From: Gemmatimonadota bacterium
GTDB taxonomy: Bacteria > Gemmatimonadota > Gemmatimonadetes > Longimicrobiales > Gaopeijiaceae
NCBI GenBank assembly: GCA_012267435.1
Contig: JAAXGM010000013.1
Location: forward strand, 1 to 64,000
Direction of reading: 5' to 3'
Length of the DNA: 64,000 nt
Below the pieces are notes generated by a model that ran no database searches, was not told where the DNA came from, and saw only the letters and a program-made list of their open reading frames with translations. Of the stretch, positions 1-59,058 are shown in pieces; positions within the stretch are counted from its first letter, which is position 1, and each line of letters starts with the position of its first letter. A program made the translations under genes and the position numbers.

Positions 1-564
1 AGAAGGGGGTGGCGGAGTAGGGGGTCAGGTTTCCCCAGCGGGGGATCCGGAGGAGGATGCTATTCGAAGGTTGTCCGCCACATCAGGGGCGAAATGGCGA
101 ACAAGCCGCTCGCCCGCGCCGTGGGAGTAGAAATCCCCGATTCCGCCGGATCTGGCTTGGCGGATACTGAGGGAGAAGGGGGGGATGAGGAGGGGGGCCG
201 GAGCGATTGCGCTGGACACCTTCGTGATCGCGGTGCGGACGCCTGATCTGGAGATCCTGATATGATCTGCCGAAACCTCCGATGGCACCCACGGAATCGG
301 TGGCCGGCATCGTTGAAATACGCAAGGTGCACGGCACCGCGGGTCTGCTCAACCGGTTGCCGAGGAGCGAAGGACCCGCGCGCCAACCACCGGGAGGAGG
401 ACCCACATGGTCTTGGCCGAGCCGGGATAGATTGCCCCCCGCCCTCCGCTCAGCTCATACGCGTCACGCCGCCCGTTTCATGCCGGGCCAACGATAAACG
501 GCTTCGCGCACGCACATCATCACGACACTCGATCCCACATCACCAAGACACGCGATTAGAGAGT

Positions 565-3500
565 ATGGCCAGTCAGCCCGAAATCAGTTCCCAGTATACG
601 GCATCCCAAGAGATTGATCGACTCCTTGACTCAGAACAACGGCCCAGAGATAGACTTGGCAATCTGTGTCGGGCGATGCTTGCGCACCAGGGCGCTGATG
701 TCAGTAACATCAGCAATTCCGACGCCGTATCGCACGTTCTTTCCTCTCGTTCCTCTGGTCGTGACCAGCGCTTCTTCGCCGCCGTCTTCCTGCGCCTTTT
801 GTCCGTTCTCCCCAACGAAATCCACGATCTTGACATCGGGAAACATGTAGGTGTCACCAAACTGCTGGCCAAGCTCCCTCAGGTCTCAAAGGCGCTTAGC
901 GTCGACAGGAATTCCCAAGGGTATGAGCGCCTTCGCGCCTTGGAGATGGCCGCTGACAGGGCAGATCAATATCTCCGTGAAGCGCTAACGGTTCCCACCT
1001 CCCTCGCAGCTTTTGACCAGGTTTATCACCGCGTCATGCGCCTTTACCGGAACCCCTTGGTTCGCGCTATCAGCGGACCGTTTCTACCCGATTTCTTGTC
1101 GAAGTCTGCTGTAAGTGCCATTCTCACCACTGTCCAGAAATACGTTGCCGCCCCACCGCGTGATACAATGGCCACATACACCGATGCCGAGGCAACCCTC
1201 GAAGCTGTATTGGCCGAATGCATCCGTTACGATACACGCTTCGTGACACATTTTTACCAACCGTTTTTCCGAGCACTTCTGCACCGCCTGACGACCGATT
1301 ACAAGTCTAATCCCGCCAATTTGCCAGGCTGCCTATCCTTAACGAGCCTCGGTAAAAGATATCCATTCTCCGTCTCCGACGCCCAGTTGCGAGTCGCTTT
1401 CGCCGTCGAGAATCAGGGTCAAGGCATCGCATTCGACGTCGAGTTGACGCTTGATCCAGATCATTACTTGTCATTCGCCTCCCCGTCCCAGTTTTTCGAG
1501 CAAGTTCTTCCAGGAGAGCGCTTCGCGCCCATCGAGTTTCCTGCGATTGTTGACAGAGCAACCGATCAGCCCGTACTTGTTGTCTATAAGCTCACGTGGA
1601 GAAACGGTAATGGGTCCGCGAGAACTATCGAAGATTTTCTCGAACTTCCAACTCAACCAAGCGACATACCTTGGGATGAACTAACATATACCGATCCCTA
1701 TAGTCTCGAACCAGTACGCACCGCCGACGATCTCATCGGACGATCCGAGCATACGAGACGATTGATTTCAAAACTACGAGCCCAAAGCGTCGGATCGTTT
1801 TGCATCTCTGGACAGCGACGAGTAGGGAAAACTTCCGTCGTATTCACGTTGGCCCATCTTCCGGTCCTCAAGGACATTACAATACTTTATCTAGAAACCG
1901 GAATGTTTATCGACCCCGACGCCCAAGAGACCATTAACCGCCTTGGCAACAAGATCTGTAGGATCCTCCTTGAACGGCGGCCGATGCTTGCCGGATTGAC
2001 CACGCCCAACTTCACCGGCGCTCTCGCGCCACTCGATGGCTTTCTCTCGACCGCATTCGTCCGCGACCCGGACCTGCGTCTGGTCGTCGTCCTTGACGAA
2101 TTCGACGCTCTTCCCCCCGAACTTTATCGACGGAATAAGATCAGTCATGCCTTCTTTCTGACTCTTCGATCCCTGAGCGCCCAGCAACCGCTCGGATTTA
2201 TCTTGGTCGGGGGCGAAAGGATGGCCGAAATACTGAGTACACAGGGCGAAGTTCTCAACAAGTTTCGTCGTCTTCAAATTGACTATCTAGACAGCCACTC
2301 TCACTGGGCCGATTTTGTGGCGTTAGTTCGTCGTCCCGTAGAGGCTTGGGCTCAGATCAACGATGACGCTATCACGAAACTCTATGAAGTGACCGCCGGC
2401 AATCCCTTTTTTACAAAGTTTGTCTGTGCGGAATTAGTCGAAGACATGAAACGGCGGCAGGACGCAGATGTAACGGCCGTCGAGATGGATCGTGCAATCA
2501 AGACAGCCGTCAACGAAGCCAGCATCAATAACTTTCAACATTTCTGGGATGATGGTGTAGTGGCGAGCACCGATGAGAGAATTGATCAAGAGCGAGCATT
2601 GCGACGGCGAGTCTTGGTTGCACTCGGTGAAGTCCTTCGATCTAACCGTTCTAGTACTACAGAAAACATCGCGGAGAAGGCCTCTCGATTCGGCCTTTCT
2701 GAAACTGAAGTTCAGCGAATGCTTGGCGAATTCGAGAAAAGAATGGTCTTGGTTCAAGCAGACGGGCAGTATTCCTGTAAAGTGGGGCTCTTCGAGCGGT
2801 GGCTGGTCGACCAGGGCGTGAGTGAACTGGATCTATCGTTAGTGGAGGAGGAACACTTGCGGAGAATAAAGGAGGCTGAAGAGCGTAAGCGCATAAAGAT
2901 CGGAGAGATCAGTACTCTCGTGAATAGATGGGAAAACTATCGTGGAAGGCAAATCACCGACGGCGACTTGAAATCGTGGCTAGATCAATTTGCCAACATC
3001 GACGAACAAAGAATGATGTTTGAATTGCTCAAAAAGCTTCGGTTTTATTCTGGCGGTCTGATTCGAGAGAAATTGAGAAACGGTCACGGATTCGTTCGTC
3101 GTGAACTCGCTGGACGTGGTGTGGTTCGTCGTGCAGCTGGGGAGGGTGCAAGGAAAGTCACTGACAATATTTTGATTAGCTACTACGGCGGAGAGGAGAG
3201 ACGAGGACCGACCTACGCCAAGATCTATGCCGATGAGAATAAGATTTATCGTTCCCGCATCGCCGCCCCGGAGCGCCTTACCGAGAGGCTGGCAGAGTTG
3301 ATAGACGTTGCAGGTATTGTATTTGTCGACGACTTCATTGGCACAGGCCGAACGGCGGTGAGAACGCTGAAAGACTCCTTGTCGCCGATGGCAGAACTCC
3401 TCAAGCAACGTGAGGTCGATGTATTTCTGATTTCGGTTTCCGGTTTTGCGCGGGCAGCGAGGAAAATCAAGCGCGCGCTTTCCAGTGTGATTCACAGTTT

Positions 3501-3765
3501 TGAAGTGTCGATCGCAGATCCACTGGACGACACCGACAAGTGTTTTGCCGATAAATCGGCGATTCTGCCGGATCCGGCAAAGCGAGCGCGAGCCAAGGAA
3601 ATCGCAGAGAAGTATGGCAAGAGAATCGTCAAGAGGAGTCCCTTGGGTTTTGGCAACTGTCAAGCGCTTATTGTATTTGAAAACACGTGTCCAAACAACA
3701 GCTTGCCGATACTTTGGGGCCTGGGAGCGGACAACAGCTGGCGGCCCTTGTTCTCTAGGCCGTAA
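565..3765 (+). CDS. STAND/AAA-type ATPase with C-terminal phosphoribosyltransferase-like (PRTase-CE-type) domain; putative defence/conflict protein
   Basis: ORF 262..3765; in-frame ATG at 565 begins MASQPEISSQ. Walker A SGQRRVGKTS (~1807), Walker B LVVVLDEFD, winged-helix-like region after the ATPase, PRPP-loop-like GIVFVDDFIGTGRTA (~3313-3360), C-terminal PLGFGNCQALIVFENTCPNNSLPILW. Visibly more AT-rich than neighbours. Confidence 0.8.
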   Translation: MASQPEISSQYTASQEIDRLLDSEQRPRDRLGNLCRAMLAHQGADVSNISNSDAVSHVLSSRSSGRDQRFFAAVFLRLLSVLPNEIHDLDIGKHVGVTKLLAKLPQVSKALSVDRNSQGYERLRALEMAADRADQYLREALTVPTSLAAFDQVYHRVMRLYRNPLVRAISGPFLPDFLSKSAVSAILTTVQKYVAAPPRDTMATYTDAEATLEAVLAECIRYDTRFVTHFYQPFFRALLHRLTTDYKSNPANLPGCLSLTSLGKRYPFSVSDAQLRVAFAVENQGQGIAFDVELTLDPDHYLSFASPSQFFEQVLPGERFAPIEFPAIVDRATDQPVLVVYKLTWRNGNGSARTIEDFLELPTQPSDIPWDELTYTDPYSLEPVRTADDLIGRSEHTRRLISKLRAQSVGSFCISGQRRVGKTSVVFTLAHLPVLKDITILYLETGMFIDPDAQETINRLGNKICRILLERRPMLAGLTTPNFTGALAPLDGFLSTAFVRDPDLRLVVVLDEFDALPPELYRRNKISHAFFLTLRSLSAQQPLGFILVGGERMAEILSTQGEVLNKFRRLQIDYLDSHSHWADFVALVRRPVEAWAQINDDAITKLYEVTAGNPFFTKFVCAELVEDMKRRQDADVTAVEMDRAIKTAVNEASINNFQHFWDDGVVASTDERIDQERALRRRVLVALGEVLRSNRSSTTENIAEKASRFGLSETEVQRMLGEFEKRMVLVQADGQYSCKVGLFERWLVDQGVSELDLSLVEEEHLRRIKEAEERKRIKIGEISTLVNRWENYRGRQITDGDLKSWLDQFANIDEQRMMFELLKKLRFYSGGLIREKLRNGHGFVRRELAGRGVVRRAAGEGARKVTDNILISYYGGEERRGPTYAKIYADENKIYRSRIAAPERLTERLAELIDVAGIVFVDDFIGTGRTAVRTLKDSLSPMAELLKQREVDVFLISVSGFARAARKIKRALSSVIHSFEVSIADPLDDTDKCFADKSAILPDPAKRARAKEIAEKYGKRIVKRSPLGFGNCQALIVFENTCPNNSLPILWGLGADNSWRPLFSRP

Positions 3766-4390
3766 CAGGCCGGAGAGAGGAGGGGAACTTCGGTGCCGTC
3801 GAGCAAGGAAGTTTTGTTGCAACTGTGGTCACGGACAACCTCTGGCCCCCACTGTTTTGCCGATGACTCCACTTGTCGTGACGACCTCAGCTGTACGGAC
3901 AATATAGAGATCCACTTCGGATCGGACATGTGCTCGATCATTTCGTCGGCGCTTGCGCGGGGGCAAAGGGTCCGCTGCGAGAAACTGCGGGTACAAAGCC
4001 GCGACGACGACTCAGCACTCGCTCAGGGTCACCTCGCGAATCCAGCGTTAGAGGCCGTCGGCGTCCATCGTGTTGAAGCCCGTCCATCCTGGTCACCAGT
4101 TGTATTGCATCCAGCTCCACAAGGCCAGCCGACCGCGTGCGCACGGAACGCGTGAAGCGACCGATCTGTTCCGCAATCTCAAGGGTGCCACTCCCCTTAC
4201 CATCCTAGAGCACATCCAGGATCGTTCGGTCCTTTGGGTCGACCCTCTGCGGCCGAACCTGTTCCGTGCGCAGAGTGTGCCGCAACCGAACCCCGATCTC
4301 CTCCCAAACCGGCGCGGGTAACCCGTTGTCCCGGCATTCCGCGATCATCCTTTGCGCTCCACTTCCCCACTGGAACGAACGACTCGGAAG

Positions 4391-4741
4391 CTAGTCGGAA
4401 GTCCAGCGCACCGCCGTCCCGTTGTTCCGAGCCGTCACCAAGCCGACCGAATCCACCGCCGCCACGCCGGGCTGATCCACGGACCACGCGACGGGGACCG
4501 TCAGGGCTTGCCCGTATTGGTCGGTCACGCGGGCCGTCAGGCGGAGCGTGTCCCCGACGGCAGAGAGGGTCGCCGTCAACGGGCCGACGGTGACGGCCAC
4601 CGGACGCGGGTTGGCCTCCCATTGGCCGGGAGGCGGCAGGGGATCGGGTTCGACGGCGACGTTTCCGGCGTCGCATCCCGCCGCCAGCGCAAGCAGCAGG
4701 TACCAGACGGGGAACTTCCGTCGTCTCGCCCCGACGTTCAC
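4391..4741 (-). pseudogene. Truncated secreted Big_2 (Ig-like) protein fragment
   Basis: Signal/lipobox-like start (LLLALAAGCDAG) then one Big_2-like domain (LSAVGDTLRLTARVTDQYGQ...VDSVGLVTARNNGTAV), ending abruptly; resembles the Big_2 part of 20222..24541. Confidence 0.6.
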
Positions 4742-4884
4742 GGTCTACCGCCGATCACCCGGGTCTCGACAAGTGTCTTCCGGTTGATTGCCATGTCGTG
4801 TCCCTTTCCTGATGGGCGGTACCCTGAAGGTGGGTGGGAGTCGACGATCCCAACAAATCCGTTGCCAACGGATCCGTTGTGGAT

Positions 4885-4935
4885 GCCCCTGCGCCGCGCT
4901 AATCGAATGCGGGACCGACGAGGAGTTCATCGTTC
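4885..4935 (+). pseudogene. Remnant of the C-terminal tail of an Rpn/DUF4351-like protein
   Basis: Reads ALIECGTDEEFIVRG, matching ALLECGTGEEFIERVR at 7808..7860; no surrounding intact ORF. Confidence 0.5.
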
Positions 4936-5215
4936 GGGGGCAACGTCGGGCTCGCCAGCAGATTCGCCCAGCACCCTCCAGTAGCCGCCCTTGTCGGGAC
5001 CTACTCGCTCGATCTTCCCGGCCGCGCGCAACTTGTCCAGCCGATACCGGACGATGGATCGCGTGGTGCCGAGCGTGGCGGCGATTTCGCGTCGGCCGCA
5101 GCTTCTCGACGGTCAGCGCAGGCGGCAGCCGGCCGGAGTTCATGACTTCCAGGCGATCCGCGAAGAGCATGACCTGAACGCGCCAGATGGAACCGGTGAG
5201 GAACTGCTGCGTCAC
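4899..5215 (-). pseudogene. Fragment of an HATPase_c_4 / RecG-like regulator C-terminus
   Basis: 5215 frame reads GSIWRVQVMLFADRLEVMNSGRLPPALTVEKLRP; a second frame continues REIAATLGTTRSIVRYRLDKLRAAGKIERVGPDKGGYWRVLG. N-terminus missing and frame disrupted. Confidence 0.55.
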
Positions 5216-6363
5216 CCATCCCCCCTACCTCCCCACCCCTCAATCTCCCGCCGAACTCTCGCCACCTGATCGGCAAGCTCGTCTCTCGACGGCAGATACA
5301 GCTGGTACTTCGACGCGTAGATGTTGGCGTCCTCGGGGAGCGTCAGCTCAACCACGGCGTCGTTTGTCCGGTCGCAGAGCAGGATCCCGACGGTCGGCAG
5401 CTCGTCATCGGTCTTCACGTAGCGGTCGAAGTAGTTCACGTTACATCTGCATCTGGCCGAGATCCTGATGGGTCAGCTTCCCGGTCTTGAGGTCGATCAG
5501 CACGTAGCAGCGCAGCAGGCGGTTGTAGAATACGAGATCGACGAAGAAGTGACTGTCATCGAAGCTGAAGCGCTTCTGGCGCGCCTCGAACAGGAAGCCC
5601 TTGCCAAGCTCCAGCAGGAACTGTTGGAGCCGGTCGATGATGGCGATCTCCAGGTCGCTCTCGGAATACGCAGGCGTCTCCTCCAGACCGAGGAACTCCA
5701 GCACCACCGGATCCTTGATCAGGTCCGACGCCTTTTCGACCACCTGTCCCTCGCGGGCGAGGCGGCGAACCTCGTGCTTGTCGCGACTGAGCGCGAGCCG
5801 CTCGTACAGGGAGCTGTCCAGCTGCCGTTTGAGTTCGCGGACGCTCCAGCCGTTGTCCGCGGCCTCGATCTCGTAGAAACGGCGGGCTTCGGGGTCGGTT
5901 ACCGACAGCAGGGTGACGTAGTGGGACCAGCCGAGCGGGAACCGCTGCAGAAGGAGGACGGGCACTGAAGCCCCAGACTCCTCGCCATGCGAAACGGGCA
6001 ATTCGGAAAACAGTGTCTGCCGAATCTTCTCGGTGACGGAAACGGAAAACGCCGTCCGCCGCTTCTCGAACTCCGGCACGACCTCCTTGAACTCCACGTA
6101 GAAACGCCGGAACTGCCTCAGGTATCGCACGGAGAACCCCCGTCCGATCCTCTCCTGCAGCGCCGCCGAGAGCTTCCTGAGCGCCTGCGCGCCGTACTCG
6201 GCCCGGTCTGCGCCCCTCTGCTCGTACTCCACGATGTACCATCCGAACAGCCAATCCGCACGACCAGCGAGCGATCCACGGCGCGGGCAGCCGAACGCCG
6301 CGTCTCCTCATGCGTGTGCCGACACAACTCGACGAGGCGTTCGAAATCGAATGGCTGGCTCAC
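5212..6363 (-). pseudogene. DUF1016/YhcG-family PDDEXK nuclease, double frameshift
   Basis: Three consecutive frames join as one DUF1016 protein: MSQPFDFERLVELCRHTHEETRRSAARAVDRSLVVR / (N)WLFGWYIVEYEQ...FFVDLVFYNRLLRCYVLIDLKTGKLTHQDLGQMQM / (Y)VNYFDRYVKTDDELPTVGILLC. One base missing near 6253 and one extra near 5441. Confidence 0.8.
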
Positions 6364-6820
6364 GCCGGCAGCCCCATCCGCCTAAGGTGGAACTCGACTC
6401 TGGCGGGATCGCGTGCCATGACCCGCTGCAGATTCTCCGGCCTGGGTTTTCGCTCCACTATCGCGAGCGAGTCACGAGATCCCGCAGGTTGCGGTCCTGC
6501 TCGCCGATCCGGCTGTAAGAGGAGCAGGAGATGCCTGTCGTCCTTTCGATCCAATCCGGACTCCGGCCAGGGGGCTCGCTTGGCGGCAGAGGGGCATCGT
6601 GCGAGGCTGTGAGCCCGGTGCCGCCGGTAAGTATCGGATCGCTGGCTGGGCGAATACATGGCGGAATGAGACGGATTGCTCAGGCCGTCGAAATCAGGCT
6701 GTTGCTTTGCCGCGGCGAGGGACCCTGGAGCGGCCCAACTCGGGTGGACGACCTCTTTCAGCGGTCGGAATCAGGACGCTTCCGCCTAGTTTCGTGGAGA
6801 GCAGCCTTCCCCGTCGGCTC

Positions 6821-7150
6821 CACTGCGGTTCCCGGAACGATCCGCAGCGAATGGGGAATGGTCGAAGGCGGGACGATCCGGGCGTGCCATTGGATCAAGC
6901 AAACGGTGAACGTGGGAGGTGGTGGTGGGCAAGTTCGAGCGCAGTCTGGATGAGTTGTTCGACCGGGGAGCGCGGCAGGGCGCCCGGCAGGTTCTGGGCC
7001 AACTGGCGACCCGAAGATTCGGCGAGGAGACGGCCGGACGTTTGGTCCGGCTGCTGGAGGAGCTGTCCGAACCCGAAGACATCGACAGGGTGAGCGAGCG
7101 CTGCTGGATTGCGGCACCGGCGAGGAGTTCATCGAGCGGGTGCGGTCGAC
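6821..7150 (+). pseudogene. Rpn/DUF4351-like C-terminal fragment, copy A
   Basis: Near-duplicate of 7527..7863 (~706-709 bp offset): VPGTIRSEWGMVEGGTIRACHWIK / SLDELFDRGARQGARQVLGQLATRRFGEETAGRLVRLLEELSEPEDIDRVSER, then frameshifted tail CGTGEEFIERVRST. Confidence 0.65.
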
Positions 7151-7217
7151 CTGGGCCAGCCAAGCGCGCCAGCGCGAGCACGAGATCATCTAACCGACGA
7201 CTAGCCGGGAGAAGGCC

Positions 7218-7500
7218 ATGTCTGAGATACCAGAGAGGATTCAGCGCAATCTGGACGAAATGATCCACACGGGGCAGATCCAGGGAATTCACGTGGGAGT
7301 CAGACAGGGGCGGCAGGAGGGGCAGGTAGCTGCTCCTGCGACGACAGATCGCCCGGAAGTTCGGCGACGAGACGGCGCGCCAGTTGTACGAACTTCTTGA
7401 TGACCTGAACAGCCTGGACGACATCGACTGGGTCACCGACGCGCTACTGACATGCGGAACCGGCGAAGAGTTCATCGAGTGGGTGCAATTCCGGGATGCG
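7218..7500 (+). pseudogene. Rpn/DUF4351-like C-terminal fragment, copy B (frameshifted)
   Basis: MSEIPERIQRNLDEMIHTGQIQGIHVG then, in another frame, RQIARKFGDETARQLYELLDDLNSLDDIDWVTDALLTCGTGEEFIEWVQ. Confidence 0.6.
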
Positions 7501-7526
7501 GACGCGCGCGCCCTCCCAGTCGACCC

Positions 7527-7863
7527 CACTGCGGTTCCCGGACCGGTCCGCAGCGAATGGGGAACGGTCAAAGGCAGGACCATCTGGGCATGCTACTGGA
7601 TCAAGGAAAATCCGGAAACGATGGCGGAGCTGGTGGACACGTTTCAGCGCAGTCTGGATGAGTTGTTCGACCGGGGAGCGCGGGAGGGCACCCGGCGGAT
7701 TCTGCGCCGGCTGGTAACCCGCAGATTCGGCGAGGAGACGGCAGGGCGTTTGTCCAGGCTGCTTAAGGAGCTGTCCGACCCTGAAGACATCGGCAAGGTG
7801 AGCGACGCGCTGCTGGAATGCGGCACCGGCGAGGAGTTCATCGAGCGGGTGCGGACGGCCTGA
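7527..7863 (+). pseudogene. Rpn/DUF4351-like C-terminal fragment, copy C (tail still open)
   Basis: Frame 7384..7863: VPGPVRSEWGTVKGRTIWACYWIKENPETMAELVDTFQRSLDELFDRGAREGTRRILRRLVTRRFGEETAGRLSRLLKELSDPEDIGKVSDALLECGTGEEFIERVRTA*. N-terminal catalytic domain absent. Confidence 0.65.
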
Positions 7864-7974
7864 GTCGCTACGAACGCCCGCAGGCAAACAACTCCGCTCC
7901 GCTGTTGTGGCCCGGACCCCTGCGCCTTACCATTGGCAGCTTCCCAGGTCTCCCGAGCACGCGGAGTCGTCGCA

Positions 7975-9144
7975 ATGAGGTCTTTCGTTCTGGCAGCCGC
8001 GTTGTCGGCGCTGGCACTGGCCACGGCAAGTCAGTTCATCGCCGCGCAGTCCATTCAGGCGCGACCCGCCGCTGAAGTGCGCCTGTCGGCCGATCCAGTG
8101 CTGTCTGTCGGGATGCTCGACGGGCCTGACGAATATCTCTTCGGCGAAATCAACGCCGGCTCGCTGCTCGCCGATGGCAGCGTGGTAGTGTCCGACCGGA
8201 TGAACTTCCGCATCCAGCGTTTCGGCGCGGACGGCGAACATCTGTGGAGCCGCGGCCGCGAAGGCGAGGGTCCCGGGGAATTCGAGAACGTCCAGATCGT
8301 CCACGGGTGCGTGAGCGCGGACCGGATCGTCGTCTACGACATCTGGACCCAACGGGTCTCGGTGTTCAACGACGAAGGGGATCTCGTCGACGACTACCGT
8401 CTCCTGTACAACGGACTGCCGATCCGGCGGTTTGGGTGCGCACCGAACGGGCGCCTGGGCTTCACGGGATACAGCGACCAAACCGTCGAGGGTCTCGCGT
8501 CCGAAGAACTCTACCGTGAGTTGATGACGCTTGGCTGGGTGGAGTTGGGCGACACCGCCGCCACCACGGTGCGCCAGCGGATTCCGGGCTCGGAAGCGAG
8601 ATATCTCGGACCCGGGAACGCCATGCCCGGAAGCATCTGGGCGCACAACGTAGCGATTGCTGCGGCCACCGAGGGCATCTGGTTTGGAAGCAGCGAGGAC
8701 TACGAGGTGGAACTGATTGGGTGGACGGGCGAGACGATTCGGCGGATCCGCTGGCAGGGGCCGGATCTGAACGTGACACAGAGGGATGTCGACCGATACC
8801 GTGACGCGCTTGAGGGAAGCTACCGGCGTGGCGGCAATCCCGACTGGCGCGCACGCTTCGAGCGCCGGTGGGCATGGGAAAGCGAGAACGTGCCCGATGT
8901 CTTTCCCGCTTACGACAGGCTCATGATCGGAGACGACGGCGTACTATGGGTGCACGACTACGTTCGCCCGGGAGAGCCAAGTGAGTGGTTCGCCTTCGCT
9001 GCGGATGGTACATGGATCCGTACGCTCGTGCCGCCTCCCCGCACGCTCCTGCTGGACATCGGCCGGGACTGGGCGCTGGTACGAACACTGGATGACGTGG
9101 ATGTCCAGCGGGTCGCGGTGCACGCGTTAGTGGAGAATCGGTAA
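7975..9144 (+). CDS. Secreted 6-bladed beta-propeller protein
   Basis: ATG at 7975 with signal peptide; propeller motif GREGEGPGEF; repeated FGADGEHLW-type blades. Confidence 0.75.
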   Translation: MRSFVLAAALSALALATASQFIAAQSIQARPAAEVRLSADPVLSVGMLDGPDEYLFGEINAGSLLADGSVVVSDRMNFRIQRFGADGEHLWSRGREGEGPGEFENVQIVHGCVSADRIVVYDIWTQRVSVFNDEGDLVDDYRLLYNGLPIRRFGCAPNGRLGFTGYSDQTVEGLASEELYRELMTLGWVELGDTAATTVRQRIPGSEARYLGPGNAMPGSIWAHNVAIAAATEGIWFGSSEDYEVELIGWTGETIRRIRWQGPDLNVTQRDVDRYRDALEGSYRRGGNPDWRARFERRWAWESENVPDVFPAYDRLMIGDDGVLWVHDYVRPGEPSEWFAFAADGTWIRTLVPPPRTLLLDIGRDWALVRTLDDVDVQRVAVHALVENR

Positions 9145-9239
9145 GACACTTCCGAGTCGAACTTCAGAGCCAGGTCGCCGCCTCACCACCTCCGAACGTG
9201 CTACGGCGACCGCGGTGAGTTGGCTGGGCGCGAGAGATT

Positions 9240-9332
9240 CGACGGACAGCGTGTGTTGAATCGTGTGACCGACGCGCGTTGTTCGAGTGCGGCACGGGCA
9301 AGGAGTTCATCCAGCGGGTGCGGACGACCTGA
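9240..9332 (+). pseudogene. Remnant tail, Rpn/DUF4351-like copy D
   Basis: Reads ALFECGTGKEFIQRVRTT*, strongly similar to 7800..7863 at DNA level. Confidence 0.55.
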
Positions 9333-9358
9333 ATCCACTCGCCCCGGGGCTATCGAGC

Positions 9359-9580
9359 CTACCCAACCGCGACCTCGACCTGGGTCACATAGACTTCGCT
9401 GCGCCAGCGTCTTTCGATCTCTTCGGCGGACGCCGTTTCGAGGAAGAGCGTGATCGCTTCCTGGAGATTTGCTCGCGCCTCGGCCACGGAGTCTCCCTGG
9501 CTGGCAACCTCCACCTCCGGGCATAGGGCTACGTATCCGTTGCCTTCACGTTCGATGATCGCCGTCAAGTGCCTTCTCAC
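9359..9580 (-). CDS. HicB-family antitoxin-like protein (no HicA recognised nearby)
   Basis: MRRHLTAIIEREGNGYVALCPEVEVASQGDSVAEARANLQEAITLFLE is a HicB-like N-terminus. Confidence 0.7.
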   Translation of the reverse strand: MRRHLTAIIEREGNGYVALCPEVEVASQGDSVAEARANLQEAITLFLETASAEEIERRWRSEVYVTQVEVAVG

Positions 9581-9763
9581 CTCAAGTCTCCCTTCAAGCT
9601 GTCCCGGCTGTACGAGCTCTCAGCGGGTGAGCGATTCGCACGAAAGGCCAACGGTGGATCGCCTTGGCTGAGAGGTAGGCGCCAATCAGGGTGCGGCAGG
9701 GTCTCCGCGTACGCGCCGGGGCGCATGCGGACGAGTTGCCGGGCTTGGGGGGTTGGTTGGCCG

Positions 9764-10249
9764 CTACGCCCGCACGCGAGCGAACAACTCCGCTCCGCTG
9801 TCACAATCGACGATCGCATCGAAGACCTCGTCGATCCGATCCGCGTCCGCCAGGTCCTCCAGGATCCGCGACAGGCGCTCGGCGGTCTCCGCTCCGAATT
9901 TCCTGGTCGCGAGACGCCGCACTAGATGCGCCCGCTCCCTGATGCGGCCCGCCTCCAGCCCCTGCTCAAGGCCCGCCTCCAGACCTTGCCGCACCCCGTC
10001 GCGGTGGACCTGATCCCTCAACTCCTTCGCTCTCTCGTACATATCCTCGTCCTCCGTGAACGACATCATTTCCGCCAGGTCCGCTTCGGAAATCTGCCAC
10101 GCCTCCGCAGCGCCCGCTACGCCGGCCCTCGTCACTGAGCGGATGCAGACGGCTTGAGCTTGTCCCCCAAACCGGATTCCGACATCTTCACTCGCCATGA
10201 TCCACGCAACCGACATCCGATCCGCCCGCGCCCGCGGGGCGACCTGCAC
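9764..10249 (-). pseudogene. Rpn/DUF4351-like C-terminal part, copy E (opposite strand)
   Basis: DQVHRDGVRQGLEAGLEQGLEAGRIRERAHLVRRLATRKFGAETAERLSRILEDLADADRIDEVFDAIVDCDSGAELFARVRA*; N-terminal part looks non-coding. Confidence 0.55.
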
Positions 10250-10328
10250 CTGTAGCTGCTCGTGTCCATGCTCCGCCTGGATCCGGGTGTGTTGATGCGC
10301 TGAGTCCCGAGCTCAAGCCGCTTCCGAG

Positions 10329-10360
10329 CCGCCCCGGTCAGCCGATCCGGGCGGTTTTTT
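10329..10360 (+). terminator. Intrinsic-terminator-like hairpin in the leader of 10409 CDS
   Basis: CCGCCCCGG-N9-CCGGGCGG-TTTTTT, 48 nt before the ATG at 10409. Confidence 0.55.
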
Positions 10361-10408
10361 CGTGCTCCGATCCGCCGTTCGACCCTGCCCAAACCTCAGA
10401 GAAAAGCC

Positions 10409-11395
10409 ATGATCAGCCCTGTGCTACCGACAATAAATGTCCTCTACGAGAATCCTGTCTGGACTCCGCCCCTCCGGGAGGCCCTCGAGAGGGAAGGCTT
10501 CCGGGTCCGCTTCGTGCACGTGAACGAGGGGATCGTCGACCCGGCGACGTCTCCTCCCGAGGGCATCTGGATGAACCGCATCAGCCCGTCCTCGCACACC
10601 CGGGGTCACGTCCACACGGTGGAGCTGGCTCGCCAGCTCCTGTACTGGCTGGAGTCCCGCGGCCGTCGAGTGATCAACGGGCTGCGCGCCTTCGAGCTGG
10701 AGATGAGCAAGCTTCGCCAGGACCTCGTCCTGCGGCGGCACGGGATCAGGACGCCGCGCACGGTGCTGGCCGTCGGGAGGGAGCATCTGCGCGCAGCGGC
10801 CGCAACCTTCGATGGCCCGTTCATCACGAAGCACGACCAGGGGGGCAAGGGCTTGGGCATCCGGCTTTTCCGCGACCCCGGGAAGCTCGAAGAGCATCTT
10901 GACGACGGGAGCTTCGACGCCGGACCCGGCGCAAGGGTGATCCTCCAGCGCTACATCCCCGCACCCGAACCGTTCATCACCAGGGTGGAGATCGTTGGCG
11001 GCCGCTTCGTGTTCGCGATGCGGAGCTCCACCGCCGGGGGGTTCGAACTCTGCCCCTCGGACGCGTGCAATCCGACGCCTCCGAACCGGGAGAGCCTCTG
11101 GGCGGGTGCGAGCGGCACGGGCGCGGCCGGCCTCTTCAGCCCGTCGCCGATCACGGGCGGCGACCCGTTGGTCCGGAAGTACATCCGGCTCTGCATCGAG
11201 GAAGGGATAGAGATCGCCGGGATCGAATTCGTGGAGGACGCGCGCGGCAACCGTTATACATATGACATCAACGGCACGACCAACTACAATCAGGCCTTCG
11301 GCGCCCGGATCGGCGTCGACGGCATGCGCGCGTTGGCCCGGTATGTACGCAGGGCGGTAATGCCGAGTCGCCAGCCGCGGCGCATCGCGTGTTGA
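10409..11395 (+). CDS. RimK-like ATP-grasp protein
   Basis: ATP-grasp-type core GPFITKHDQGGKGLGIRLF, RYIPAPEPFITRVEIVGGRF, GIEFVEDARGNRYTYDINGTTNYN. Confidence 0.7.
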   Translation: MISPVLPTINVLYENPVWTPPLREALEREGFRVRFVHVNEGIVDPATSPPEGIWMNRISPSSHTRGHVHTVELARQLLYWLESRGRRVINGLRAFELEMSKLRQDLVLRRHGIRTPRTVLAVGREHLRAAAATFDGPFITKHDQGGKGLGIRLFRDPGKLEEHLDDGSFDAGPGARVILQRYIPAPEPFITRVEIVGGRFVFAMRSSTAGGFELCPSDACNPTPPNRESLWAGASGTGAAGLFSPSPITGGDPLVRKYIRLCIEEGIEIAGIEFVEDARGNRYTYDINGTTNYNQAFGARIGVDGMRALARYVRRAVMPSRQPRRIAC

Positions 11396-11482
11396 GCGGG
11401 GATGCCGCCGAAGCGCAGCGAGACCGATCGATCCCTCGCGACACCGGGACAACCATCGCGGCAGCGCCGCCGGAGACGAACG

Positions 11483-12718
11483 ATGCTTGGGAAGACGACG
11501 GATGAGGGGACGAGGTGTGCGACGGCCGTCGCAATGGCCACGCTGTCCATCACGACACTCGCAGAGCTCGCCCACCCACTCGCCGCGCAGGAGGTAATCG
11601 AACTGCCGGCGGAAGACCGGCCCCTCGACGCCGACTTCGAGGACATCTACCGGGTGGGCTCGCTGGATGGGGATGGCTGGGACACCTTCGGCCGCGTCGC
11701 GGGGGTCGGGTTCGACGGTGCCGGCAACCTCTACATCCTCGACACGGAGGCGGTGCGGATTAGTGTCGTCGACCTGCAAGCCAACCTGGTTCGGCAGTTC
11801 ATTCGAGAAGGACAAGGCCCCGGAGAGTTTGGAAGCGACACCGCGCCAGTGCTCGAGTTCGCCGTCATGGGGGACGGGCGGGTGATCGTCTACGACCTGG
11901 GACAAATGGGATTCACCCTCTTTGATGCCGACGGCCAATTCGAACGCATGGCCCGGTTTCCAGGTGCGCAGATGAGCCCTGCGATGATTGGCGGCATTCA
12001 GGCCTTCCCGGGCATGGATCGAGTCCTCGCGACATCCGAGGTCCGCTACCTGAGAATGACCGCGCCCGGTCCGGACGACGAGCCGTCGGAATCCTCGTTC
12101 CGGCATGTCCTGAGCTATGATCTGAGTGGCGACGAGGTCCGCATCGACTCGGTTGCCGCGGGGTGGCGGCCTCCTGGTGATGCGGAGGGATTCAGGCCGG
12201 TGCTCAGGGCGGGCGTGCTGCCCAGCGGAGCGTTCGTGTACACCGACTCTTCCACGTATGCGATCAAGTCTGCCGTGCCGGGCGGCCTCGTGACTCGGGT
12301 CCTGACCCGTCCGTTCCAGCCCCGCCCCGTGACGGGCCGCATCAGGGCCGACGAGATCGAGCGGCGCCTGGAAGCACTCGCGCCCGTTCGCGGCGGCAAC
12401 TCGTTTCAACAGCAAATGAGAGAAATGCGCCGTGGCCAGATCGAGGCGATGGAGTTCTTCGACGAGATCCCCGTCGTGGTTGACCTGACCACGAGTTGGG
12501 AAGGCACGATCTGGGTCCTTCACCGGGGTGGCGGGGGCGCGGAGGGCAACCGGATCGACCTCATTTCGTCGGACGGACGCTACCTGGGCACCTTCCCGCC
12601 CGGCTCCACCGCGATGCCTTCCGCCTTCGGCCCGGACGGCCTCGTCGCCTTCGTGGAGACGGACGACCTGGACGTGCCCTATGTGGCCGTGAGGCGGCTG
12701 CCGGAGGGGATGCGCTGA
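11483..12718 (+). CDS. Secreted 6-bladed beta-propeller protein
   Basis: In ORF 11402..12718; likely start 11483; motif REGQGPGEFGSD. Confidence 0.7.
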   Translation: MLGKTTDEGTRCATAVAMATLSITTLAELAHPLAAQEVIELPAEDRPLDADFEDIYRVGSLDGDGWDTFGRVAGVGFDGAGNLYILDTEAVRISVVDLQANLVRQFIREGQGPGEFGSDTAPVLEFAVMGDGRVIVYDLGQMGFTLFDADGQFERMARFPGAQMSPAMIGGIQAFPGMDRVLATSEVRYLRMTAPGPDDEPSESSFRHVLSYDLSGDEVRIDSVAAGWRPPGDAEGFRPVLRAGVLPSGAFVYTDSSTYAIKSAVPGGLVTRVLTRPFQPRPVTGRIRADEIERRLEALAPVRGGNSFQQQMREMRRGQIEAMEFFDEIPVVVDLTTSWEGTIWVLHRGGGGAEGNRIDLISSDGRYLGTFPPGSTAMPSAFGPDGLVAFVETDDLDVPYVAVRRLPEGMR

Positions 12719-13041: not shown

Positions 13042-13437
13042 TCAAGCTCCGCGCAGCACTCTGATGTCGGGGCACTCCAGAAGCGACCCGTCCGCCGTGA
13101 CCAGGGTGAGTCCGTGCACTACGGCGGTGGCCGCGATGAAACGGTCCGCCGGATCATCGTGACCAAGCCGGATGGTGCGACTCCCCAGCGCGATGTCGAA
13201 TGTCACCGGGAACTCACGCAGGGGTCGGACGTTGAGGGCGCTACGGATCCAGCTCCACGGATCGGGGCGGAGCAGCACACGTCCCTTCTCGGCCAGCACC
13301 AGCGCCTCCCAGACGCTGACGGGGGACAGCGCGAGGGTGTTCGCAGTGTCGGTCAGTTCGCGACGCGCCCGGTCGGAGAGCCGGTGGGGATCCAGCAGGC
13401 TCCAGAGCCAGATGTGGGTATCGAGGAGCAGATTCAC
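13042..13437 (-). CDS. PIN-domain toxin (VapC/FitB-like)
   Basis: GTG at 13437 gives VNLLLDTHIWLWSLLDPHRLS...HDDPADRFIAATAVVHGLTLVTAD. Confidence 0.85.
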   Translation of the reverse strand: MNLLLDTHIWLWSLLDPHRLSDRARRELTDTANTLALSPVSVWEALVLAEKGRVLLRPDPWSWIRSALNVRPLREFPVTFDIALGSRTIRLGHDDPADRFIAATAVVHGLTLVTADGSLLECPDIRVLRGA

Positions 13438-13847
13438 GGCTTCTCGATGTCGTTCAGCTCGCCGATCTCCGGGCGCAGCGCGGCCCAGTCGTAGGGCTCG
13501 GTGGCCGGGTCCACGATGTCGCCGACGATCTCGCCGATGTCGCTCATGGCCCCCATCCACTCTCCGCTGCCGGCCTCGACCCCGGGACCCGCGCCGGGGA
13601 CTGGCCCGGCCGCCTCGGCCTCGATGGTCCGGCCGTCGCGCGTGGTGGTCGAAACGGTCGAATCAGCCCGGTATCGGGCAGCCATCCGGGCCCGCTCGCG
13701 CACCATGCCGAGCGCGGACCTCGGGGTCGCGGAGCGCTCGAGCAGATAGCGCAATTCACCCTCGAGCGAGCGATGATTGGCCCTGGCTCGTGCCTTGAGC
13801 GCGGCGATCACATCGTCGTCCACGTTGCGAATGGTGACTACGCCCAT
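13434..13847 (-). CDS. FitA/VapB-like ribbon-helix-helix antitoxin
   Basis: MGVVTIRNVDDDVIAALKARARANHRSLEGELRYLLERS; stop overlaps the PIN toxin start. Confidence 0.8.
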   Translation of the reverse strand: MGVVTIRNVDDDVIAALKARARANHRSLEGELRYLLERSATPRSALGMVRERARMAARYRADSTVSTTTRDGRTIEAEAAGPVPGAGPGVEAGSGEWMGAMSDIGEIVGDIVDPATEPYDWAALRPEIGELNDIEKP

Positions 13848-53667: not shown

Positions 53668-56600
53668 CTATGGAGGCGAATCTTTCGCTCCAAAACCATG
53701 CGGGAAACGAAGTCTCCTTTGCGCCGTCAGGCGCTGAAGATCAAACGCCTCCAACACTGCCCTAAGATGGTCGTCGGAACCGGGATTGATCGCCCCATCA
53801 TGCGACAATCTGCTTGCCATGAGTTTGAGCTCGCTCAGCGGGATCTCCTCGAACTTTCGCGGACCGCGCTCGCGAAGTACAGTTGCAGAGCTGCCCTTGG
53901 TGCGCACAATCGAGTTGATTAGGCCGCCGCTCCCGGACTCGTCTTCCTTGGCGATTCTCCCCTGTTGAATGGCACGCTGGAGGGCCCTGTTCATGGCCCG
54001 CTTGAGTTGGCGCCCCATTCGGGCGATGCCGATTCCGCTCAGATAGAGATTGTAGGCTCGCCTCGCGAGCATCGGGCCCTCCACATCTATGATTCGACAA
54101 AGCCCTTCCGCCACGCGGCCCGTCGTGGCATTCCGCGGATCTGGACCAGCCCGTCCTTCGAAGACTACGTAAGACGCGATGCCGCTGGAACCAGGATCGA
54201 ACGCAACGGGGTCATGGATGGCGGGATGCACGCTCTCCTCGCGAAGTGTGGGTGGATCTGGTGTTTCCTGGGGCCCCGCCATGTGCTCCTTGGGCACCGG
54301 AACGGCGTCACTGGAGATAGTGGACTCTGGCGTGACCTCCTCGCGGACATGGGTAGCCGGAGGCGGCACCTCCGGGGACGGTGGCTGGCCCGACACGGGT
54401 TCAGCAGGGCCCGTGTTCTCTCGCAGTTCGTGACCTACAGGCTTCGGTGCCGACGGCCCACCAGCCGATTCATCGACGCCGCTTGGCCAGATGCGGAGAC
54501 GATCGAGTTCCGCCCACACGGGCTCCATGGCCTTGTCGCGATCTCGGTAGAAGTCGCTACCTCGAATCCGGACGAAGTGCCAGCCGGCCCGCTCAAGGTC
54601 GCGCTGACGCGCCATATCCCGCTCGTAGCGATCAGGACCATGCCACCTGTCCCCATCGCATTCCACCGCCAATCGGCCCTTCATGCCCTCGACGACTAGG
54701 TCGATCCTGTAGCGGTGATTCACCGGGTCGCCCACCGACACCTGCGTCCTCACATGAAAGCCACGCGCCGTGATGCGCTCGTAGACATGTCGTTCGAACT
54801 TTGACTCAAACCGCTGCTCCTCCGGATCGGTCGGCTCCCGGCCGGGATCAAGCATGTAGCTGAGAAGGCGATGGCGCATGCACCTGTCGCTGAGCAGGTC
54901 GAGCTCAACCGAGTGGAAGAGCCACAGCTGATCCTGGGCGCGACTGGCCGCGACGTTGAAACGCTGTCGGGCCGCCTCGTTTGCGAGCACACCGATCCTG
55001 TGCTCCCCTGGTGCCGCGACCATGCTCAGGAAGATCACGTGGCGCTCGTCGCCCTGGAAGGCGTAGGCATCACCGCAGATCAGCCGCCGCTCCTCAAGCA
55101 CCTCGGGATCGAGCACCTGGAGCAGCATGCTCTCTATCAGCCTCGCCTGCGCCTTGCCTTGGAGACTGATGACGCCCATCGTCATCCCAGCGTACCGCGG
55201 GTCGCCGATGCACCCGCGGATCTGCGCGACGATCGCTTCTGCTTCTGGCGGATTCACTGCGTGCTGGGCACTTCCTTTGCGGTATCCATCATCCACATGC
55301 CGGCGTTTGATTGGCGGAAGCCGATCAGCGGAGTAGACGCGCAATGGATCGAGTGGCGTACCGCTGGAAGCGTAGCAAAGGTTATTCGAGAACTGGATGA
55401 TTTCAGGCATGCACCGGAAGTGCTCGCGCAACACGATGTTCCGGCCAAATCGAATCTTCGCGTTCCCGTAGACGCTACTCTGTGGGTAGAGCGCAACTTT
55501 GTGTGGCACATTACGCAGAAAGGAATGTTGAAGGGCGGCGACATCCTCATCGGCAACACCCACGCCCGCAGGGCTGATCTGTTGATCGTCACCGACGACG
55601 ATGATCTTCTTGCCAATATAGAACAAGAACAGGCTTTCAATGCCTAGCTGGCTCGCCTCGTCGACTATGACCACATCGTAGAGTCCCGGCGAAGGGTCGA
55701 TCATTTCAGCCACAAGATACCGAGGCATGATCCAGATCGGGATCGCCGCGCGGCAATCACGCATGTACTCGCGCGCCTCTCGCTTCAACCGGGCAATCCT
55801 CGCGGACCTCCCGGTGCCCTTGCCCATCGCGCGCACCGCCTCACGCCAGCCCTTCAGCGCATTGCGTTGGGGCGGTGAGAGACGTTGAAAAAAGTGCCTC
55901 CACGCTCGCTGCGCAGCGGCGTCTCCGACGAGTTGTCTCTTCCTCTTCTCTGCCTCGTGGCGTCTTTGCGATAGCTTTCGCTCGTAGTCGAGATCGGATC
56001 GCCGCCTAAGCCATTCGTCAGCCGAAGCCCAGCGCCACGCCTCCTCCCAACGGGACAGCCGATCATCCCAGACAGGTTCGTCGAGGCTCGCCTCGATTTC
56101 CTTGGCCAGGTCGGGAGCATCCAGCCTGATCGCGGCCTCGATTCGATTGCGTCGCGATTGCGCGTCGCGCGCCTGGTCGATTGCGACCACCTTCGCGTGG
56201 CATTTACTGTAGGCAGCCACGTCACGTCCCGCTATCGCTTCCGCGAGCTCGTTCACAACAGGGTGCGCGTCATGCAGGCCGCGAAGGCGTGACAATGGCT
56301 GGGCGCATAGCTCGACTATCCTTCCTGCTTCGGTCAACGCCTTGTCAATGTCCGCCGCGTCCGCCAGATCCACCCACCGCAACGCCTCTCCGTCCATCCA
56401 GTTGGGCGTGGGGATCGGGGGCGACATCCTGGACAGTTGCCTGAATGCCTCGATGCACGCGTCGCCGTATTCGAGCACCCTCCTTAGAGCCTCAATGTGC
56501 GGTTGAAGTTCGGCTGGGCATAATCGCCGGTCGATCGAGATGTCAGTGACTCCCGCCTCCCGCCACCGGCTCCCAAGATCCGAAAGCGCAAACTCAAGGT

Positions 56601-59058
56601 CGAGGTCGTCGCACACCAAGCGTAGTCTCCGCACATCGTCGGCGGGTCGACCGGCGACAAAAACGTCTTTCCTGAAATAGGTTCGTCCCTTGAGCACCTT
56701 CGGCGTGAACAATCCGAATCGCTTCCACTTGCCGCCGCCCCGGAGATGGTGAGCCACGACCGCCGCATCGGAACGTACCCTTCGCGGGTCGAGTCCCTTC
56801 GGTCGAGTCACGGTTCGATTGCCAAGCCTAGCCAGTAGCTGTTCGATCTTCCCGATGCGCTCCTCCGTCAGGTTGAGTAGCCTGCGCCACCTGGTGTCTC
56901 GACCCGTGACCAAGTCTTTCAGCGCCATGGGCAGCCACGCGTTGTGTTGGCCCTGGAGAGCGAGCTCTTTCCGTCGCGCCTCAAGGCTGTTGAGATCGCG
57001 GGCTAGACTGGCTCGTACCTCGCCCGACAACGCCCGAATCGGCGCGTAGGCCGAGTGCGCGTGGAGCACGTCGTCCACTTGGTCACGGCGCCTCCGTGCC
57101 TCAATCTCATTCGATACGATACGCGCGAAGTCCCCCGGCGCGGTAAGAGCAGCAACCTTCGGGGTCTTGAGCAGCGAATCCTCGACATCCCTGTCCGAGT
57201 ACTGCCTCCGAATCTCCAGCCATTGGGCCGCCTCGGCATTGGAAACCGTCGGACGATTCGGCACATCGCGCCCCAACCGAAACCACCCAAACGTCGCGCG
57301 CTCGTCGGCGACCCTCGCTGCGATTGTTGAAGCCGTACCCTGGTATGCTCCATCGAGCAGGACATGTGACAGAGTTTCGTCTTTCCGCAGGCTTTGGATC
57401 TCCGAGTCGATTCGAGCGATGTTCCTTCGAGCCTTGTCAAGCTCACGATCAATCTGCGCGATCCTGTAGCCATAATCGTAGGGCGAGTAGGACGCTTGTC
57501 GGTTCGTGATCCCCTCGACGGCGGCGTTAACCTCTGCGAAAGCGTCGCCGCCGTGCCCGAGCAGGCTGACGCACAGAGGCTGGATCTCAGGTGGGAGCTT
57601 GCGCTTTAGCACTCGGAGGGCGCGTCCCGTTTCCGCTGTGATTAGTACTCGCTTGCCCTTGGCGAGAAGGTGGCACATGAGGTTGGCGATGGTGTGGCTC
57701 TTCCCCGTGCCGGGTGGGCCTTGAACCAGCACCCCTTGGTTGCTGTCGATCGCGTTGACGATACGTCGCTGCTCGCGGTTGGCCGCCAATGGGAAGTAGA
57801 TCTCCGACGGCGAAGGCGTGCCCCTACTACTTGGCCCGCCATTTCGGCCGGGGTCTTTGGACGGTTGTCGCTGTCCGCGAGAGGTGCGCTTTCCATCTCC
57901 ATTTCCCCACTCGTCATCAGTCAGTTGACCCCATCCGCGAGGCACGTCGGCGGCTTCGTTCTCGAGGTTCTGGATCAGTTTCTCGTAGATGCGGACCATG
58001 CCCGTCTGAGGGCGTCTGCGGAGAATCAGTGCGGGTGCAAAGCTCACGACGGGGTCACTACGAGTCGCCCGCTTGGCTCCGAGTCCATCGGACCACACTG
58101 CGCCAGGGCTTAGAGCTCCTGCCCAAGTCCTGAGCGGAGCATGGATTAGAGACCGATCCCAGATCGCGTCTCCCACCTCGTCAAGCTGCGCTTCGACCGC
58201 GTCATAGTATGATCGATCGGGTCGGAGTTCGGCCTCAAGCATGTCGTCTTCGACTCGGAGGTTGGCCCCTTCGCCGGGAGCCTCCACGCGAATGACACTC
58301 TTCTCTGGATCGAAGGTCAACTCGACTTGGCTGACCACCGCGTGTCGGCGAACCCGAACAGGCCCACCCCTGGTCGGTGCCTGCCAGTCCATCAGGCCAA
58401 TTCCCAGGACGACCTCGACGATCTCGCTCTGCTTCTGCAATTGATGGTACAGCGCGAAGAGACGGGCATAGAGATCCTGGACCTGCCTGCGACGGCGATC
58501 TTCCGTCGCCCACGCCTCCCGCCGCGACAGAAAGGCCCCAATAGCCTCGACGTCCTCCGGGAAGTCCGCGAGCTGCCCCTCGTCGATCGCTTCGGAGAGT
58601 TCCTCCAACTTGATTTCCTTCAACCATACCGCTACGATATCGTGTGGTTTCGGCTCGCGCTCGAATTCCTGCTTGCGGACTTCGAGCCACGGACCTGCCT
58701 CATCGTAGTCGTCGTTCCAAGCGCCACTTCGGCAGCCCGCTGCTTGTGGCATCTCGTCGAACCAGAGCACGGAATCGTATTCGGCGACGTCACGCACGGT
58801 CTTGCTGCGAAGGCCAACGAACTCCTTCAAGTAACGAGCAAGCCGTAGCGAACGACTTTCGACTCCACTACGGTCAGCGTTCAATTCAAGCCATCTCCTT
58901 CGACCATCGTGCCGACGGATTCCTCCATGTGGTTTCCAAATAGCGCGTGCTTTCCACCTGCCTGTTCCGCCCAGCCGCGAACCAAGATAACGTGGATGCG
59001 CGGACGGTGCCCTGTGGACACCAAGAGCCCAAAGCGTGAGCCAGAGCGACTTCTCCAA
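53668..59058 (-). CDS. Large SF1 (Upf1-like) helicase with C-terminal Vsr/MTES_1575-like nuclease; putative defence protein
   Basis: Helicase motifs GPPGTGKSHTIAN, VVIVDEASQ, VVGDDQQISP, REHFRCMPEI, YAFQGDERHVIFLS, NVAASRAQDQLWLF; nuclease DLVVEGMKGRLAVECDGDRWHG(~54625-54690). Native start may be downstream (e.g. TTG 58884). Confidence 0.85.
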   Translation of the reverse strand: MEKSLWLTLWALGVHRAPSAHPRYLGSRLGGTGRWKARAIWKPHGGIRRHDGRRRWLELNADRSGVESRSLRLARYLKEFVGLRSKTVRDVAEYDSVLWFDEMPQAAGCRSGAWNDDYDEAGPWLEVRKQEFEREPKPHDIVAVWLKEIKLEELSEAIDEGQLADFPEDVEAIGAFLSRREAWATEDRRRRQVQDLYARLFALYHQLQKQSEIVEVVLGIGLMDWQAPTRGGPVRVRRHAVVSQVELTFDPEKSVIRVEAPGEGANLRVEDDMLEAELRPDRSYYDAVEAQLDEVGDAIWDRSLIHAPLRTWAGALSPGAVWSDGLGAKRATRSDPVVSFAPALILRRRPQTGMVRIYEKLIQNLENEAADVPRGWGQLTDDEWGNGDGKRTSRGQRQPSKDPGRNGGPSSRGTPSPSEIYFPLAANREQRRIVNAIDSNQGVLVQGPPGTGKSHTIANLMCHLLAKGKRVLITAETGRALRVLKRKLPPEIQPLCVSLLGHGGDAFAEVNAAVEGITNRQASYSPYDYGYRIAQIDRELDKARRNIARIDSEIQSLRKDETLSHVLLDGAYQGTASTIAARVADERATFGWFRLGRDVPNRPTVSNAEAAQWLEIRRQYSDRDVEDSLLKTPKVAALTAPGDFARIVSNEIEARRRRDQVDDVLHAHSAYAPIRALSGEVRASLARDLNSLEARRKELALQGQHNAWLPMALKDLVTGRDTRWRRLLNLTEERIGKIEQLLARLGNRTVTRPKGLDPRRVRSDAAVVAHHLRGGGKWKRFGLFTPKVLKGRTYFRKDVFVAGRPADDVRRLRLVCDDLDLEFALSDLGSRWREAGVTDISIDRRLCPAELQPHIEALRRVLEYGDACIEAFRQLSRMSPPIPTPNWMDGEALRWVDLADAADIDKALTEAGRIVELCAQPLSRLRGLHDAHPVVNELAEAIAGRDVAAYSKCHAKVVAIDQARDAQSRRNRIEAAIRLDAPDLAKEIEASLDEPVWDDRLSRWEEAWRWASADEWLRRRSDLDYERKLSQRRHEAEKRKRQLVGDAAAQRAWRHFFQRLSPPQRNALKGWREAVRAMGKGTGRSARIARLKREAREYMRDCRAAIPIWIMPRYLVAEMIDPSPGLYDVVIVDEASQLGIESLFLFYIGKKIIVVGDDQQISPAGVGVADEDVAALQHSFLRNVPHKVALYPQSSVYGNAKIRFGRNIVLREHFRCMPEIIQFSNNLCYASSGTPLDPLRVYSADRLPPIKRRHVDDGYRKGSAQHAVNPPEAEAIVAQIRGCIGDPRYAGMTMGVISLQGKAQARLIESMLLQVLDPEVLEERRLICGDAYAFQGDERHVIFLSMVAAPGEHRIGVLANEAARQRFNVAASRAQDQLWLFHSVELDLLSDRCMRHRLLSYMLDPGREPTDPEEQRFESKFERHVYERITARGFHVRTQVSVGDPVNHRYRIDLVVEGMKGRLAVECDGDRWHGPDRYERDMARQRDLERAGWHFVRIRGSDFYRDRDKAMEPVWAELDRLRIWPSGVDESAGGPSAPKPVGHELRENTGPAEPVSGQPPSPEVPPPATHVREEVTPESTISSDAVPVPKEHMAGPQETPDPPTLREESVHPAIHDPVAFDPGSSGIASYVVFEGRAGPDPRNATTGRVAEGLCRIIDVEGPMLARRAYNLYLSGIGIARMGRQLKRAMNRALQRAIQQGRIAKEDESGSGGLINSIVRTKGSSATVLRERGPRKFEEIPLSELKLMASRLSHDGAINPGSDDHLRAVLEAFDLQRLTAQRRLRFPHGFGAKDSPP

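Follow-up and report, generated by a model that had tools for sequence, protein, structure and literature searches.

A STAND NTPase fused to a PRTase-CE domain in one gene of a Gemmatimonadota bacterium: a probable single-protein anti-phage system

Here, we describe a gene of a Gemmatimonadota bacterium (positions 565 to 3765, plus strand) whose 1,066-amino-acid product combines an N-terminal module, a STAND NTPase, a winged helix and a C-terminal PRTase-CE domain. The window analysed is the 64-kb start of contig C222 (C222:1-64000) of a 68%-complete assembly, and the gene was delimited by its open frame, its start codon and the limits of homology. Since PRTase-like domains serve as phage-defence effectors in other bacteria, e.g. 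in retrons, the gene probably encodes a one-protein anti-phage system, and we consider it likely that this single polypeptide works on its own as an ATP-gated abortive-infection system with its effector at the C-terminus. A preliminary description of the DNA had called the system uncharacterised. This holds for the one-gene STAND-PRTase, which is a new arrangement of known defence domains, but not for the effector, which has already been named a conflict effector; PRTase proteins, though distant relatives of this one, have also been validated in phage defence (PMC9122126, PMC13092281).

The reading frame is open from 262 to 3765, i.e. also upstream of the ATG at 565. We take this ATG as the true start because similarity to an orthologue begins at about 550 and the ATG of the orthologue aligns with 565; a purine-rich AGAGAG lies just 5' of it. 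The frame from 565 to 3765 on the plus strand and the orthologue-aligned ATG bear out the single gene of about 1,066 codons that had been proposed. With a GC content of 52.5% versus 67.7% in the rest of the window, the gene is indeed AT-richer than its surroundings, as had been noted before. It lies 564 bp from the start of the contig, and its own upstream context therefore ends there. A chimeric contig was ruled out, as a second genome carries the same collinear 1,066-aa protein.

The effector domain covers residues 803-1065 (2971 to 3759, plus strand) and was assigned by PF24390, by the PADLOC model PRTase_III-A and by a fold model. PF24390 (PRTase-CE) matches with E=3.2e-45 and a score of 155 bits (cut-off 27), over profile positions 2-253 of 253, and PRTase_III-A, which represents the PRTase of type III-A retrons, matches the C-terminus with E=1.2e-33. 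A PRPP-type loop, IVFVDDFIGTGRT, begins at residue 918 with DDFIGTG at 922-928, and PNNSLPILW occupies residues 1043-1051; the PRPP-loop-like PRTase module of the preliminary description is thereby supported. The strict PROSITE pattern of the PRPP motif (PS00103) has no exact match in the protein. Across eight diverse PRTase-CE proteins, D923, G928, G1028 and P1043 (window numbering) are among the invariant residues, and the C-terminal GFG/PNN motifs are kept as well. The loop residues DD..TG are present, and the C-terminal domain is a predicted enzyme that may use PRPP.

A structure model of residues 766-1066, built from six sequences, reached a mean pLDDT of 77.5 and a pTM of 0.78. Its best matches among solved folds are uracil PRTases, and almost every one of the top 23 in the PDB is a uracil or hypoxanthine-guanine PRTase. 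Probabilities for these matches are mostly >0.9, and TM-scores are low, at about 0.16-0.31 by query length. High probability together with low TM-score points to a PRTase-like core, with either a differing periphery or an imperfect model. The C-terminus thus resembles PRTases most, as would be expected if the PRTase fold proposed earlier is correct, though at low TM-score. By sequence, the PDB yielded no relative of the whole protein and only weak PRTase matches for the PRTase domain. NCBIfam DS32_1 (NF053875, 'phosphoribosyltransferase-like anti-phage protein') matched weakly (20.7 bits against a cut-off of 250). The top fold match in a viral library belongs to a siphovirus record and is itself a PRTase-CE protein (TMq 0.59). 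Next come giant-virus proteins that are uncharacterised: those of pithovirus and mimivirus match the 766-1066 model (window 2860-3762, plus strand) more closely than any solved PRTase, and terrestrivirus and catovirus proteins give weaker fold matches.

The NTPase core spans residues 380-640 (1702 to 2484, plus strand) and was assigned as STAND/AAA_22 from Pfam AAA_22, motifs and a STAND profile match; it is followed by a winged-helix-like arm at residues 641-770 (2485 to 2874, plus strand), which was delimited by profile alignment and model pattern. Pfam AAA_22 matches residues 410-557 just above the family cut-off (E=1.2e-6). All hallmarks of a STAND NTPase, i.e. Walker A (GQRRVGKT at residue 416), Walker B (VVVLDE at 507), the G-x-P motif (GNPF at 612) and a downstream winged helix, are present, in agreement with the STAND/AAA NTPase read from the letters before. 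The winged-helix-like region, likewise proposed there, is supported by an alignment of the NTPase and winged helix with TPR-STAND proteins over 341 columns at a probability of 97.6% from shallow profiles of 2-3 sequences; a helix-helix-beta hairpin pattern appears at 699-738 in the low-confidence full-length model. An ORC-CDC6-like identity of the NTPase was rejected on profile comparison (probability 0.6%, again from shallow profiles of 2-3 sequences), and PF24389, the family of these ATPases, has no match in the protein at E<=10. The closest STAND relatives that we found are TPR-STAND-wH proteins of about 900 aa without a PRTase, encoded in a conserved operon in another family of the phylum (L038 5495-8194; L039 5528-8242; L037 6103-8823; L040 4161-6875).

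Upstream of the NTPase, the low-confidence model predicts an all-helical module at residues 1-250 (565 to 1314, plus strand), a putative sensor or oligomerisation part, and a strand-rich segment at residues 251-375 (1315 to 1689, plus strand). The full-length structure model has a mean pLDDT of 36.5, which is very low confidence and too poor for a fold search; in it, helices at 13-248 are the only secondary structure of the first part, and strands lie at 275-346. These agree with the helical N-terminus that had been described, whereas the beta-sandwich described next to it is unproven because of the pLDDT of only 36.5. Residues 251-375 are the least conserved of the protein, with 54% identity to the orthologue. 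Among 399 genomes of the phylum, the N-terminal 375 residues occur in two, those of the gene and its orthologue; in the 399 genomes and in plasmids we found no homologues of the module alone, and no plasmid match to it.

The single full-length orthologue that we found is encoded on VXLT01000052.1 of the Gemmatimonadota MAG SB0661_bin_2, which we take to be sponge-derived. It is 65% identical, of the same length (1,066 aa) and collinear without gaps. In DNA and translated comparisons, homology between the two loci spans start to stop codon and nothing beyond. With conservation confined to the gene, a partner gene seems unnecessary, and one was ruled out inasmuch as none is common to the two loci. 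Between the two copies, dN is about 0.26 with dS saturated, and third codon positions differ at 59% of sites versus 19-26% at the other positions; the gene is under purifying selection, with protein-level constraint in all segments.

Is the gene a regular component of these genomes? The preliminary description held that mostly vertical inheritance would speak against a defence role; the occurrence is patchy instead, with a full-length gene in 2 of the 125 genomes of the family, and the full-length protein is absent from all ten congeners searched. Patchy occurrence and low GC content together suggest that the gene was acquired by horizontal transfer. No whole-protein homologues were found in phages or plasmids, where plasmids of Rhizobium match the PRTase part only.

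The surroundings of the orthologue, a single locus, form a defence island. IS sequence, recognised by eye from transposase frames, flanks the orthologue on either side, and nearby lie a GmrSD_N protein, a DrmD/PbeA-type PLD-SNF2 helicase, an RmrA-like HTH/ImmA gene and a PDDEXK_4 fragment. The neighbourhood of homologues, which had been put forward as informative, thus favours the earlier proposal, with this single orthologue as the case. Directly upstream and divergent, a frame at L013 6351-7484 (minus strand) joins IS-derived sequence to a stretch of about 220 aa, for which we obtained no Pfam or PADLOC match. No reverse transcriptase lies near the gene in either genome, the window copy offering 564 bp upstream, and the flanks of the orthologue (7.9 kb upstream, 10 kb downstream) hold neither a reverse transcriptase nor a recognised ORC-CDC6-like gene. 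Rfam gave no match in window 1-12000.

What accompanies PRTase-CE domains elsewhere? Our phylum sample contained five other complete PRTase-CE genes above the cut-off (L032-L036); the sixth match above it is a short partial frame of 129 residues in G048. In L034 and L036, the PRTase-CE adjoins a type III-A retron reverse transcriptase, and L034 (5661-14902, minus strand) encodes a type III-A retron with RT and PRTase-wHTH. A metallo-beta-lactamase domain is fused to the PRTase-CE of L033 (G221:C97:32000-48000; 5677-9047, minus strand; 515 aa), a fusion that overlaps an adjoining UG13a-class reverse transcriptase (PADLOC E=1e-174) and possibly forms a UG-RT/PRTase defence pair with it. In L032 (5745-10200, minus strand) the PRTase-CE has a DNA methylase and an ORC-CDC6-like ATPase as neighbours, and in L035 a divergent ORC-CDC6-like ATPase. 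Thus, in five of five neighbourhoods of the phylum sample, the free-standing PRTase-CE always occurs with recognised or candidate defence genes. The order methylase, PRTase-CE, ORC-CDC6-like ATPase recurs on the Rhizobium plasmid pRlX2 (L045 4672-9400, plus strand); on two such Rhizobium plasmids, the ATPase is broken into two or more frames. In L034, a neighbouring protein of 2,103 aa has 'HTH upstream double PIN' as its sole match.

With type III-A retrons, the gene shares the effector family (PF24390, PADLOC PRTase_III-A), a PRPP-type loop and the C-terminal PNN-LPI-W motif, but it has no RT, no match to an ncRNA family and no wHTH-PRTase_assc domain, and its effector forms one polypeptide with an NTPase. 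A retron was ruled out, as there is no RT or ncRNA match near either copy. The cassette of MTase, PRTase-CE and ORC-CDC6-like ATPase (PF24389/PF24390; L032, pRlX2) also couples a PRTase-CE with a P-loop ATPase, yet as two or three separate genes and with an ATPase of another family, which has no significant profile similarity to the NTPase described here. Avs and the TIR/SIR2/nuclease-STAND-TPR proteins likewise unite a central STAND switch and an effector in one polypeptide (PMC9122126). Proteins of this type carry the effector at the N-terminus and the sensor repeats at the C-terminus (PMC9122126), whereas here the effector is C-terminal and an unassigned module N-terminal; the protein has neither the N-terminal effector nor the C-terminal repeats of Avs, and no Avs model is among its PADLOC matches. 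Finally, the DS-32 PRTase-like protein (NF053875) and DprA-PRTase (PMC9122126) also tie a PRTase-type effector to phage defence, but the DS32_1 similarity is far below the family cut-off and the gene has no DprA.

Previous studies regarded retron PRTases as probable effectors and called their mode of action unknown (PMC9122126), and reported that a DprA-PRTase pair shields E. coli against the phages T7 and lambda (PMC9122126). DefensePredictor work included the validation of systems in E. coli, and the Fig. 4 legend on validated systems mentions a PRTase (PMC13092281). Two III-A retrons have been studied: Bpu1, whose effector is of the type described here, did not protect against the phage panel, which counts against a defence role, and Ppe1 resisted transformation into E. 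coli and was presumed toxic (PMC12548924). A STAND-PRTase fusion was not described in the literature searched, which mostly excluded subscription papers and is thus weak evidence of novelty.

The combination of a STAND NTPase with a PRTase-type effector, as proposed at the outset, is supported by the PRTase-CE domain, by its likeness to retron III-A and by the modelled fold. We infer the sensing, gating, chemistry and toxicity of the protein, as well as its defence role, trigger and substrate, as follows. The helical and strand-rich N-terminal module (residues 1-375) may detect an infection cue or keep the protein inactive. The STAND NTPase and winged helix would then act as an ATP-dependent switch, probably via oligomerisation, and the PRTase-CE would act on PRPP or on a nucleotide or nucleic-acid ribosyl substrate. 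We speculate that this activity halts growth of the infected cell, i.e. leads to abortive infection.

PRTase folds act as sensors in some regulators, such as PurR and PyrR. By this precedent, the PRTase domain could be a non-catalytic sensor of PRPP or nucleotides in a STAND protein that regulates transcription or stress through its winged helix, and the inexact match to PS00103 and the winged helix itself would suit such a regulator. We regard this as unlikely, given that PRTase-CE recurs alongside reverse transcriptases and ATPases of defence, that D923, G928 and the C-terminal GFG/PNN are kept across eight diverse members, and that the gene has no conserved neighbour that it might regulate. 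It is rather improbable, too, that the gene is the remnant of a multi-gene system of the retron or MTase-PRTase-ORC type whose other genes were lost from the contig. The contig does end 564 bp from the gene and PRTase-CE genes elsewhere have partners, but no RT and no recognised ORC-CDC6-like gene lies in the 7.9 kb before or the 10 kb after the orthologue, the two loci have nothing in common beyond the gene, and the fused NTPase could take the place of a separate ATPase. Very improbable, in our view, is a STAND protein of housekeeping or metabolic function that takes no part in conflict: the closest STAND relatives found are indeed TPR-STAND proteins in conserved, apparently non-defence operons, but these carry no PRTase-CE, and the gene is rare, patchy and of foreign composition, with its orthologue in a defence island.

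Beyond a stand-alone abortive-infection system, the protein might, as a doubtful extension, represent a separate immune-receptor class with the reversed order sensor-STAND-effector, in which the N-terminal 375 aa would be an undescribed phage sensor and ATP-driven assembly would activate a PRTase to modify nucleotides or nucleic acid. If true, such a modification would be an immune chemistry so far undescribed. Retron and related PRTase effectors are coupled either to an RT-RNA complex or to a partner protein; with switch and effector in one protein, PRTase chemistry and ATP gating would become testable with a single purified protein. The fusion would also widen the range of sensors that captured the PRTase effector.

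Downstream of the gene, the window holds a DUF1016/YhcG PDDEXK nuclease frame of 263 aa (5441-6232, minus strand) that lacks the end of the domain and is probably decayed. This cut-short frame and a weak DUF4351 match downstream of the gene confirm only in part the decayed mobile and defence neighbours of the preliminary description. A PIN-domain gene (VapC-like toxin) lies at 13042-13560 on the minus strand. Further along, a lower-GC stretch encodes a protein of 1,796 aa (53668-59058, minus strand) with a split AAA_11/AAA_12 helicase and MTES_1575/DUF559-type nuclease domains, which is a probable further defence gene.
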